The notes under the pieces were generated by a model. It had not been told where the DNA came from and searched no databases. It saw only the letters and a list, made by a program, of their open reading frames with translations. The position numbers were made by a program, and so were the translations under genes. Below are positions 5,341 to 44,016 of a DNA stretch of 64,000 nucleotides, one piece after another. This DNA is from Candidatus Peregrinibacteria bacterium (GTDB taxonomy: Bacteria > Patescibacteriota > Gracilibacteria > Peribacterales > Peribacteraceae): contig JACPXZ010000010.1 of the NCBI GenBank assembly GCA_016196225.1, forward strand, positions 1 through 64,000. Direction: 5' to 3'. Positions within the stretch are counted from its first letter, which is position 1. Every line of letters begins with the position of its first letter.

Positions 5341-5388
5341 CTGTTTTCTTTCTATATCGTCGGCAAAAAAAATTTATTATTTAAATAC

Positions 5389-5426
5389 ATCAATTAATTG
5401 ATTAATTGATATGTAATGATTATTAT
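5389..5426 (+). promoter_or_regulatory. Palindromic operator overlapping the promoter of the TrpR-like gene
   Basis: A perfect inverted repeat ATCAATTAAT-TG-ATTAATTGAT (5389-5410). Its right half contains TTGATT (5398-5403), which with TATTAT (5421-5426) 17 nt downstream makes a sigma70-type promoter. Transcription would start near 5433, almost at the start codon. A repressor bound here would cover the -35 box. Confidence 0.7.
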
Positions 5427-5435
5427 CTCATTGGT

Positions 5436-5972
5436 ATGGGAAAATTAGACTTTCGGAAGCTCTCAAAGAATGACCTCCTCGACCTCGAGGACGAACTCTG
5501 GAAAACACTAAAGGGGATGCGGGCATTAAAAAAGGATCCCTCTCTCCTCTTTCGGGATCTCCTCACGATGAGCGAAGTCGTCATGCTCGCACGACGTATC
5601 CAAATAGCAAAACTCCTCATGTGCGGTCAATCGCAACAAGATATCTGTTTAAAACTCTCCGTCGGACTCTCCACTGTCCAGTCCATTGATCGGTGGCTCC
5701 GGGAAAAATTTGAAGACTACCGCGATGTGCTCCCCGAGCTCTATAAACAAACATGTACCCTGCAACAGAGTAAAGACCGCAAACGTGTACCCATCGATCT
5801 TTATTCCTTCCGATGGCTTCGCCGAAAGTACCCTCTCCATTCTCTTCTCTTCAATGCCATCCTAGACGACCTCCGGTTTGGTCCCCCTCCAACCCACCCT
5901 GCAAAGGGGAAATATAAACCGAAATATTTGTCTCCCAAACAATATAAAACATCTCATACATCAATTAATTGA
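5436..5972 (+). CDS. TrpR/YerC-type DNA-binding regulator
   Basis: A 178-residue protein. Residues ~40-90 resemble the TrpR/YerC helical DNA-binding domain: LLTMSEVVMLARRIQIAKLL is the helix preceding the helix-turn-helix QDICLKLSVGLSTVQSIDRWL. The remaining 85 residues are basic (RFGPPPTHPAKGKYKPKYL) with no known domain. The last residues TSIN are encoded by the left half of a 22-bp palindrome identical to the one at the promoter. Twin palindromes at both ends suggest autoregulation and possible looping. An ATG at 5406 is in frame but lies upstream of the predicted transcription start. Ligand unknown. Confidence 0.75.
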   Translation: MGKLDFRKLSKNDLLDLEDELWKTLKGMRALKKDPSLLFRDLLTMSEVVMLARRIQIAKLLMCGQSQQDICLKLSVGLSTVQSIDRWLREKFEDYRDVLPELYKQTCTLQQSKDRKRVPIDLYSFRWLRRKYPLHSLLFNAILDDLRFGPPPTHPAKGKYKPKYLSPKQYKTSHTSIN

Positions 5973-5981
5973 TTAATTGAT
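5960..5981 (+). promoter_or_regulatory. Second copy of the 22-bp palindrome
   Basis: Identical in all 22 positions to 5389-5410 and overlapping the stop codon of the TrpR-like gene. Two perfect copies 571 bp apart and nowhere else noticed in the window, so the best reading is a paired operator; a repeat acquired with the gene is the alternative. Confidence 0.65.
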
Positions 5982-6047
5982 GTATATACGACTATTTATT
6001 GTCTCTTCTCTTTTTTATAAAAAGAATAATGGGGTATACTGCTTCTC

Positions 6048-6509
6048 ATGATCGAAGGCGATATCCTCGAAAATCCCGACGAACTTCGCCGACGCTTGGG
6101 CGGCAAGCGTGCGGGGAGGCCCGGGGAAGGATTCGCGGACATTCGCATTGTGACCGATCCGGTGGAAGAGATCGAAACGATCGGCCAGCAACTCTATCGG
6201 TTGTCCCGTCGTATGCGAAGACTTTGTGATTATGAAGATAATCCGGACCAATTCATGATGCGCTGCCCCAAATGCGATCTCATGAACGATTTTACGAGCA
6301 CCGGACAGCAGATATTTTATTTTGAGAGTGAATGGAAAGGCGATCGCCCACCCGATCATTCCACAACCCCCAAACGCATCTCGGTGATCCGCTATGAGGG
6401 CGATCGGGCGATCTGCAAATGCGGCAATTGCGGAGAGGAATTCGAGCCGGAGTCTTCTCCTGATCCCATTCCTTTTCTTCCCTCTCCCGACGGGAGAGGG
6501 CCAGGGTGA
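6048..6509 (+). CDS. Zinc-ribbon hypothetical protein ending in a palindromic repeat
   Basis: A 153-residue cytoplasmic protein. The N-terminus is charged (DELRRRLGGKRAGRPGEGF); a helical stretch with RLSRRMRRLCDYEDN follows, then CPKC (~residue 73) and CKCGNCG (~residue 125), which could together bind zinc. The final residues PFLPSPDGRGPG are encoded by a palindromic repeat that also supplies the stop, so the original C-terminus may have been replaced. Function unknown. Confidence 0.55.
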   Translation: MIEGDILENPDELRRRLGGKRAGRPGEGFADIRIVTDPVEEIETIGQQLYRLSRRMRRLCDYEDNPDQFMMRCPKCDLMNDFTSTGQQIFYFESEWKGDRPPDHSTTPKRISVIRYEGDRAICKCGNCGEEFEPESSPDPIPFLPSPDGRGPG

Positions 6510-6585
6510 GGGGGTCAGATAGTATCTATACATAAACGAGCCTCATACCCCCTCACCTCATTCCTCTCCCGTCGGGAGAGGAGGA
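6481..6585. repeat. Inverted pair of CTCTCCCG palindromes between convergent genes
   Basis: Copy one (6481-6515) holds CCTCTCCCGACGGGAGAGG followed by CAGGGTGAGGGGG. Copy two (6547-6585) is its mirror, CCCCCTCACC then CCTCTCCCGTCGGGAGAGG. Each is a hairpin and the pair can form a larger one. They lie between a plus-strand and a minus-strand gene and probably end transcription from both sides. Confidence 0.75.
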
Positions 6586-6611
6586 TTTGTAATCCTTTGT
6601 TGTGTCGTTTT

Positions 6612-41625: not shown

Positions 41626-42742
41626 GGGCGCAATTATCAAAACACCCATCTCCATCAAGACGATTGCCGTCGTCACATTCTTCAAATCCTTCGACGACGC
41701 GGTTGCCACAGACGGGCAACCGACAATTGGGCATACAAGCATCATAGATCTCATTATTGCCATCATCGCATTCTTCGGATCCCTGCTTGATCCCGTCTCC
41801 ACAACGAATGAAGGTACAGGTCTTTGCATCACATTCGGGATCGTAGCGACCACCAGTATCGCATTGCTCATCATCCGCCGTGCCTTTGATCCCATCCTTC
41901 CCAAGGATTTGGACAATCCCGTCTCCACAGAATTCCTTTTTACACTTCGCCGAGCACCCATCGTTATCCGCAGGGATCGGGCGACCACCTTCCTCAATAC
42001 ATGCCTGCACATCTTCTTGCGAGAGAATTTCGAGACCCGTGAGCGATCCTCCGTCACAGAATCCCCCATGATCGCATTCTTCACTAAATTCATGGACTTC
42101 GTTCCCGCAGATCCACACAGAAAGAGAAGAAAGACTCCTCATTATTGAAGAAGTCGGTGTGATCGTCGAAGTAATGGTTGGAGTCACGGTGAGTATCACC
42201 ACAGTGGGAGTCACCACTGGAGCAATAGTTCCCCCTACGCTCGAGGAGCTTCGGGAGACAGGGGGGGTAACTGTCGGAGAAACCGTCGGAGAGAAAGATG
42301 AACTCCCGCAGTCGTGCGGCGTACACCAGAACATCCACCAGGAGCAGGAGACTGCACTACAAGCAGAACGCGAGGACTCTGCCGAAAGCTCTGAGCTTTT
42401 TGAATAGGATGATGCAGATGATGGAGGGGGGGGAGTCGGCGTGATAGTCGGAGTGACTGTTGGCGTGATGGTTGGGGTCACCGTAGGCGTGATAGTCGGA
42501 GTGACTGTTGGCGTGGTGGTTGGGGTCACCGTAGGCGTGATAGTCGGAGTGACTGTTGGCGTGATGGTTGGGGTCACCGTAGGCGTGATAGTCGGAGTGA
42601 CTGTTGGCGTGATGGTTGGGGTCACCGTAGGCGTGATAGTCGGAGTGACTGTTGGCGGGTCACCGTAGGCGTGATAGTCGGAGTGACTGTTGGCGTGATG
42701 GTTGGAGGAGTCGTTGGTGAAGTAGATGATTGCGAAGAACAC
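41597..42742 (-). CDS. C-terminal part of a frameshifted Cys-rich surface protein
   Basis: The meaningful frame begins around 42660 with TVTPTITP repeats; the first ~28 residues ([13 protein letters not shown]) are out-of-frame reading of the same repeats. It contains a [18 protein letters not shown] motif, matching two copies in the upstream frame, and three DUF4215-like units (CGDGIVQ..., [32 protein letters not shown]). Ends in IPPERLP without a membrane helix. With 42622-44016 it forms one gene of roughly 780 residues interrupted by a 10-bp deletion. Confidence 0.65.
42438..42715. repeat. 48-bp tandem repeat (TVTPTITP units) with one 10-bp deletion
   Basis: About six copies of a unit made of two related 24-mers, one with GGCGTGATAGTCGGAGTGAC and one with GGCGTGATGGTTGGGGTCAC. 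At 42650-42665 one unit reads GTTGGCGGGTCACC instead of having twelve bases between GTTGGC and GTCACC. This 10-bp loss shifts the frame of the host gene. Confidence 0.9.
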
Positions 42743-44016
42743 GTTTGTGGATTACACCAAAACATCCACCATGGACAAGTAATCGGCACACACGAACTTG
42801 ATGCGGATGAACACGATGAAGGCTCACAGAATGGATTCCACCACGGACAGGGGATATCGCTACATGATGATCCAGAGGAGAAGGAAGAGGAAGAAAAGGA
42901 AGAAGATGAGTCAGAAGAAGATGAGGGGAAGGAAGAGGAAGAACTTCCACACCCAGAGAGTGGACAACAGGTACAACTGTCGCCATTAAGTTGGCAACTT
43001 GTTCCAGGTGTAAAGCAGGGGCCACCACAACTTGCTGTGTACGGATCCCAATCACAACCGGAGGAAGATTGAGAGCTGTTTGATCCGTGGGAGTCTTCTG
43101 ACCCTTGTGATCCTTGTGACCCCTGAGAACCTTGAGAGTTTTGAGAGTCTTGGGATCCTTGCGATCCTTCGGATGAAGAAAGAGGAGAGGGAGAAGGAGT
43201 TGTGATCGGAGTGGGAGAGGGAGAGGGAGAAGGAGAAGGAGAAGGAGTTGTGGTCGGAGTGGGAGAGGGAGAAGGAGAAGGAGTTGTGGTCGGAGTGGGA
43301 TAGGGAGAAGGAGAAGGAGAAGGAGTTGTGGTCGGAGTGGGAGAGGGAGAGGGTGATGGGCCGGGTTCGGGGCACGCCGTCGTCGGATCATACCCGCACG
43401 CTGATGCAATAATCAGACAAGCAGTAGAACATGTTGGGCTCACATTCCCCATACAGGCAAGAGGGGTTTGGATAGGTGGACTGCCCGAGGAAGATCCGAG
43501 ACACTGAAACTCATCCTCACTACAACATGGATGGTCACTATCACACGACTCACCTCTTCCTCGACATGTTGAAGGTGGGGGAGGAGGAGGAGGTGAAGGT
43601 GGGGGAGGAGGAGGTGGAGAGGGGGGAGGAGGAGGTGGAGAGGGGGGAGGAGGAGGTGGAGAGGGGGGAGGGGAAATCTGACACTTAAGGTCATAACCTT
43701 CTTCTGGGTTAGCTCTGGGTTCAGGAGTGCATACGGAACCCTGCGTGCATATCGGTGTGGTCCAAGCCTCACCGTAGTTAAAGATATGACCTCTCAAGCA
43801 ACACTGGCTACAGTCCTCTCCAGGGGCAGCGAACTCCTCGCAAATGCGTATGCCTAGGGATAGACAGTAATTATTGTCGTAGCAGTAAGGATCGTTTGGG
43901 TATTCACAGGCAGGATCAACTTGGGCCTGAAACCGCTGCTCTCGCACAAAAGCGAATACCACCGTGAGTAAAAGCACAATCACGATGCCAAAGAACGCAG
44001 TAAGCCGCGAAGACAC
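42622..44016 (-). CDS. N-terminal part of a frameshifted Cys-rich surface protein
   Basis: Signal/anchor [20 protein letters not shown], a Cys-rich segment ([26 protein letters not shown]), polyproline linkers, a module [14 protein letters not shown]...TCSTAC shared with the gene at 108-1010, [12 protein letters not shown] repeats, SQGSQGSQ repeats, and two C-P-W-W motifs ([26 protein letters not shown]). The frame breaks inside a 48-bp repeat and the last 11 residues ([11 protein letters not shown]) are spurious. The continuation is in the neighbouring frame. Confidence 0.75.

Follow-up and report, generated by a model that had tools for sequence, protein, structure and literature searches.

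A TrpR-like gene between identical palindromes in a Peregrinibacteria genome: a candidate REPtron-like unit

A gene for a TrpR-like protein lies between two identical palindromes in the window, i.e., the whole analysed stretch of 64,000 nucleotides from a Candidatus Peregrinibacteria bacterium (genome G000). Do these palindromes act as a pair of operators, as the original prediction had it, with autorepression from the promoter site and possible looping to the other one, or do they mark the ends of a unit that moves? Comparison with related genomes, all of them draft metagenome assemblies, makes it rather probable that positions 5385-5986 constitute a small mobile (or formerly mobile) REPtron-like unit, composed of a gene for a TrpR-fold protein and its end palindromes.

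The palindromes and the TrpR-like protein

The locus contains the following features (coordinates in the window).

5385..5986, + strand: entire bracketed unit of about 0.6 kb including both palindromes, with ends formed by a 31-nt direct repeat; homology to the related genome G005 is confined to it
5389..5410, + strand: left palindrome, ATCAATTAAT TG ATTAATTGAT, overlapping a -35-like hexamer
5398..5426, + strand: promoter-like TTGATT-17-TATTAT, a consensus match only, with a count near chance
5436..5972, + strand: gene for a 178-aa TrpR-like protein (ATG at 5436; Trp_repressor domain, residues 36-101)
5541..5738, + strand: region encoding the helix-turn-helix domain of TrpR type (residues 36-101)
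5805..5870, + strand: part coding for a conserved C-terminal helical motif (YSFRWLRRKYPLHSLLFNAILD; consensus [KR]YPxH), two modelled helices, residues 125-145
5960..5981, + strand: right palindrome, 22-mer identical to the left one, in direct orientation; holds the stop codon TGA 5970-5972; perfect 14-bp arms, 5956-5985

According to the original prediction, two identical, perfect 22-bp palindromes overlap the -35 box and the stop codon of the gene. Both sites are indeed present and identical, each being an inverted repeat around a 2-nt centre TG (10+2+10); the 10-bp arms pair as claimed, but the central TG cannot pair with itself, so that the 22-mer is not a strictly perfect palindrome. The stretch identical in both copies covers 26 bp (5385-5410 and 5956-5981), and the ungapped direct repeat at the unit ends covers 31 nt with 94% identity. 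The 22-mer is absent from the rest of the window, and 100 dinucleotide shuffles yielded no chance match to it with up to three mismatches.

Both overlaps hold as well. The hexamer TTGATT (5398-5403) lies within the left palindrome and TATTAT (5421-5426) just outside it, with a 17-nt spacer and with the start codon 10 nt downstream of the -10 hexamer, these being consensus matches whose count in the stretch is close to chance (2 found vs. 1.7 expected). The stop codon TGA (5970-5972) forms the centre of the right palindrome; this overlap looks incidental, since in an 81%-identical relative the stop codon shortly precedes the palindrome, i.e., the overlap is not conserved. The right palindrome was also considered as an intrinsic terminator and rejected, as a scan of the stretch for intrinsic terminators did not detect it and no T-run follows it.

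The proposed TrpR-like identity of the product is borne out by the match to the Pfam Trp_repressor domain (PF01371; E 9e-10, 38.9 bits vs. the cut-off of 27), shared by all 48 family members, and by the predicted structure, in which two short C-terminal helices come after a TrpR fold (AlphaFold model, pLDDT 81). The closest PDB structures are TrpR proteins (Foldseek probability 1.00, E-values about 0.01), and the best profile relatives are TrpR-like proteins too; the score with the YerC/HisR profile TIGR02531 is 24.4 bits, below its cut-off of 42.2. Residues E47, M50, R53, and R54 are invariant in the family. Tryptophan is bound by R84, G85, and S88 in TrpR from E. coli; in an alignment with the E. 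coli sequence, one residue being trimmed, the corresponding family residues are S/K, V/I, and W, respectively. As the binding residues are not retained, the protein is unlikely to respond to tryptophan.

No catalytic domain or motif was found in the protein by Pfam, NCBIfam, and PHROGs searches, or via the AlphaFold model and Foldseek. In particular, there was no match to the Y1 HUH transposase domain (Pfam, NCBIfam, PHROGs), with no conserved HUH in the family alignment, and no DDE, tyrosine or serine recombinase domain (Pfam, NCBIfam, PHROGs, Foldseek).

Palindrome-bracketed genes in Patescibacteria

The arrangement recurs throughout the family. Nearly every close homolog has its own palindrome of 24-36 bp just upstream of the start codon, and among 35 further loci from GTDB genomes, a bracketing direct repeat (score 16 or more) is present in 25, vs. 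five out of 887 random control brackets placed in the same loci, while some relatives have the upstream palindrome only. The relatives with the bracket layout all come from Patescibacteria, the 35 loci including those from Peribacteria, Moran-, Taylor-, Nomura-, Portnoy-, Kuenen-, and Yanofskybacteria. The bracketing repeats are mostly hairpins or palindromes whose sequence differs between loci; within a locus, their asymmetric loops are identical too, and thus the repeats are in direct orientation. None of the seven measured YerC-type TrpR-like genes of the same class, those in loci resolved in frame, is bracketed. The bracketing goes with the C-terminal motif [KR]YPxH (34 out of 46 vs. none out of six, Fisher p 0.0009).

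The similarity of the palindromes tracks that of the proteins (Mantel-type p 0.0005), and the recognition helix is associated with the palindrome given the rest of the protein (p 0.035). The distribution is patchy: the family gene occurs in 13 out of 353 genomes of the class, and genomes of 0.7-1.0 Mb have up to 5-6 family copies. Family units lie between convergent genes more often than between divergent ones (16 vs. 5, p 0.03, with orthologous loci kept in the count). Five species of Taylor-, Nomura-, and Parcubacteria have the unit at one locus, between the transketolase and PfkB kinase genes, and hence it can be inherited vertically over long times with the bracket intact, like RAYT genes. 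Both palindromes of this locus change together between species, and one species (L090) has the unit in the opposite orientation with respect to the conserved transketolase/PfkB flanks.

Judged by sequence, this layout, found across many ultra-small bacteria of Patescibacteria/CPR, resembles a very small mobile element, not described before, with ends that would be bound by its protein. No description of the bracket layout was found in the searched full-text literature, subscription journals and preprints lying outside it.

Copies of the unit and solo palindromes

It was originally suggested to search the genome for the palindrome in order to define a regulon, with many unrelated copies pointing to a repeat instead. 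The whole genome (1.085 Mb, 38 contigs) contains exactly seven copies of the 22-mer and no variants with one or two mismatches, which rejects a many-copy repeat. Two of the seven are those of the window, two surround a decayed copy of the gene, and three are solo palindromes. The decayed copy, on another contig upstream of tRNA-Tyr, is the same gene with an internal deletion; both palindromes are kept, 158 bp apart, start to start. One solo separates a peptidase gene from a small ORF, well upstream of the latter; another, between convergent genes; and the third, in frame within the gene of a mevalonate-pathway GHMP kinase. Due to these distal, convergent, and intragenic positions the solos do not form a promoter set; a pure regulon is rejected, and a plain operator regulon does not explain the seven copies.

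In G005 (Candidatus Peribacteria RIFCSPHIGHO2_02_FULL_49_16, same family), the unit is 82% identical to that of the window at the DNA level over 597 bp. The identity starts and stops at the palindromes, with none in the flanks. The palindromes are identical in 44 out of 44 positions, compared with 80% identity of the interior in G005 and 74% in the decayed copy, the latter value depending on a gapped alignment. Like the decayed copy, the G005 unit adjoins tRNA-Tyr, with different left flanks; since both are found there, the window site was probably occupied later than the tRNA-Tyr site. Repeated insertion at one tRNA-Tyr hot spot is possible. Two G366 copies share 81% identity, which is restricted to the gene region, and have different palindromes. 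The decayed copy, G005, and G366 provide cases of one element at non-orthologous loci with sharp ends. The decayed copy at tRNA-Tyr and the limits of homology at the palindromes suggest that the entire bracketed unit has moved or been copied.

In G193, from the genus of G005, a family gene lies between two similar 36-bp palindromes, and this arrangement is itself flanked by aminotransferase and sortase-like genes; in G005, 8 bp separate these two genes. The junction is not base-exact, and the difference could be a deletion in G005. At the window site, the comparison being limited by divergence, only the downstream ORF matched its ortholog, in G008, so that no empty site was found. The spot orthologous to a G359 solo is without a palindrome in G358 and G370, where the sequences are too diverged for the junction to be read. 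Searches of viral contigs, phages, and plasmids gave no matches, and phage or plasmid origin was rejected on these grounds.

Among 36 related genomes, the window palindrome occurs in four, all of which have a family gene. Solos are few in any one genome (0-3). In G028, one of the genome's own palindromes recurs as a solo between the uvrB and purA genes; the large contig of this genome has 29 strong palindromes in all, five of them at TrpR-like genes. Three further solos each are found in G359 and G369, one of them within fmt (G369). The G359 solos (L213, L215, L217, near 1501) continue on both sides into complementary arms that differ between loci, e.g., CCCAGTT...AACTGGG, as if the solo core sat centrally in an older palindrome or terminator hairpin. 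Two G005 solos (L040 and L043, near 1501) have a common flank of about 35 nt on one side, and therefore the copied piece would be longer than the palindrome.

A palindrome occurs at about the same spot of the mevalonate-pathway kinase gene in two genera, G016 (L042, 1256-1277) and G000 (L007, 7232-7253), each resembling the palindrome of its own TrpR-like gene; the G005 version is decayed. The kinases of G000 and G005 have four extra residues at this site, and that of G016 does not have this insertion. By these sequences, either insertion or in-place evolution could have produced the site.

Comparison with known systems and alternative explanations

The closest parallel is with REPtrons, where a RAYT (TnpA-REP) gene is flanked by cognate REP palindromes that are also present elsewhere (PMC6006769, PMC3116915, PMC3686654). 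Here, too, one small gene is flanked by its own palindromes and further palindrome copies are found elsewhere in the genome, each gene has its own palindrome class with signs of co-evolution, and low gene copy number and patchy spread are combined with long vertical inheritance. The differences are also clear: the fold is that of TrpR, unrelated to the Y1 HUH transposase; solos number 0-3 per genome vs. tens to over a thousand; and there is no GTAG foot, though many arms begin with TAC. According to the REPtron literature (PMC6006769, PMC3116915, PMC3686654), these do not transpose as whole units, whereas the present unit, gene included, appears to have moved.

With YerC/HisR and TrpR (PF01371, TIGR02531, TIGR01321), the protein shares the DNA-binding domain and fold, and the gene shares a palindrome at its own promoter. 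It differs from them in an extra lysine-rich N-terminal start and the C-terminal [KR]YPxH helices, and the family palindromes are 24-46 bp long and have a second copy after the gene, and copies of the unit appear to move; HisR/YerC, unlike this bracket, have no 3' site. Rickettsia palindromic elements and other in-gene palindromic insertions are short palindromes in frame inside protein genes, similarly to the in-gene palindromes in the G000 mevalonate-pathway kinase and G369 fmt, with the difference that here the cognate gene is present in the same genome.

Under the REPtron-like reading, the palindrome is most likely a binding site for a dimer of the protein, and as binding at the left end would overlap the promoter, the gene should repress itself. 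The palindromes at both ends would mark the unit for movement, which the protein may drive or guide, and palindromes alone, i.e., the solos, might also land elsewhere. Since the protein has no recognised catalytic domain, a host enzyme may cut and join the DNA. Protein and palindrome would co-evolve, hence a palindrome of its own for each lineage. A bolder version, possible but put forward tentatively, is that a single TrpR-fold protein moves any DNA lying between copies of its cognate palindrome, either itself or through recruited host enzymes, making a minimal Patescibacteria element of ~0.5-0.6 kb that scatters solos, some of them in frame in genes. If true, this would be an independent counterpart of REP/RAYT built on a repressor fold in a vast uncultured group with reduced genomes; it would show how a one-domain DNA-binding protein becomes a genome-mobile unit, and would provide a natural series of protein/palindrome pairs for reading DNA recognition by the TrpR fold.

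Autorepression through the promoter site, proposed originally, is plausible: in almost every relative, a long palindrome specific to that relative immediately precedes the start codon, and the frequent autoregulation of HisR/YerC (PMC9413887) supports it as well. However, a pair of operators leaves most of the observations out of account, namely, that the unit itself seems to have been moved or copied, that solos are not at promoters, and that the bracket is family-wide with lineage-specific palindromes. In its fullest form, a dual-operator autorepressor, the protein would bind the promoter and 3' palindromes, the C-terminal helices would join two dimers, and the gene would be looped off, with solos being extra operators and duplicate genes being moved by ordinary recombination. 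This would account for the upstream palindrome at the promoter in nearly all relatives, the correlation of the C-terminal motif with the second site, and the retention of both sites through vertical descent at five orthologous loci, and it has a precedent in TrpR-family HisR/YerC, with 20-bp palindromes and frequent autoregulation (PMC9413887). We consider it unlikely, since the second site invariably lies beyond the gene, close behind the stop codon, instead of at a freely varying distance; blocks of homology terminate at the sites; solos occupy non-promoter positions, one checked solo locus not being common to relatives; and the G193/G005 junctions differ. Under this reading, too, the locus would be out of the ordinary, a conserved two-operator bracket that has no place in the standard picture of TrpR/HisR.

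It is very improbable that the palindromes are passive, i.e., belong to a hairpin or REP-like family (a terminator or mRNA-end element) that is spread otherwise and flanks the gene by chance. They are AT-rich perfect hairpins, several between convergent genes, and other palindromic repeats do exist in Patescibacteria genomes, e.g., the GTAGGGGC...GCCCCTAC family in G028; however, their sequence is specific to each TrpR-like gene, they are found only in genomes with a family gene, the right copy is not followed by a T-run, and bracketing is far above the control. Direct repeats at the ends and solo sites, resembling attL/attR and attB, respectively, together with the L090 unit inverted relative to conserved flanks, would suit a site-specific integrating cassette, with the palindrome as the attachment site of a host (Xer-like) recombinase and the TrpR-like gene as cargo. 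Yet the site differs in every lineage, following the cargo protein, unlike a fixed host site, and has no conserved core across lineages, which leaves this explanation highly doubtful.

Other repeats and compositional features were observed along the way. Contig C3 of G028 (L149-L202) has a separate palindromic family, GTAGGGGCAAGGCATGCCTTGCCCCTAC and variants, with about ten copies (e.g., 123219-123246, 539887-539914, 589229-589256) and no linked gene seen. In the window, two inverted copies of a CCCTCTCCCGACGGGAGAGG-type sequence with a MITE-like look follow ORF 6048-6509 (6476-6590); an ORF at 108-1010 has a long run of serine codons, read as poly-E on the opposite strand, and encodes a cysteine-rich, secreted-looking protein; and the GC skew rises to +0.28 at 42001-44000, within an otherwise negative stretch.
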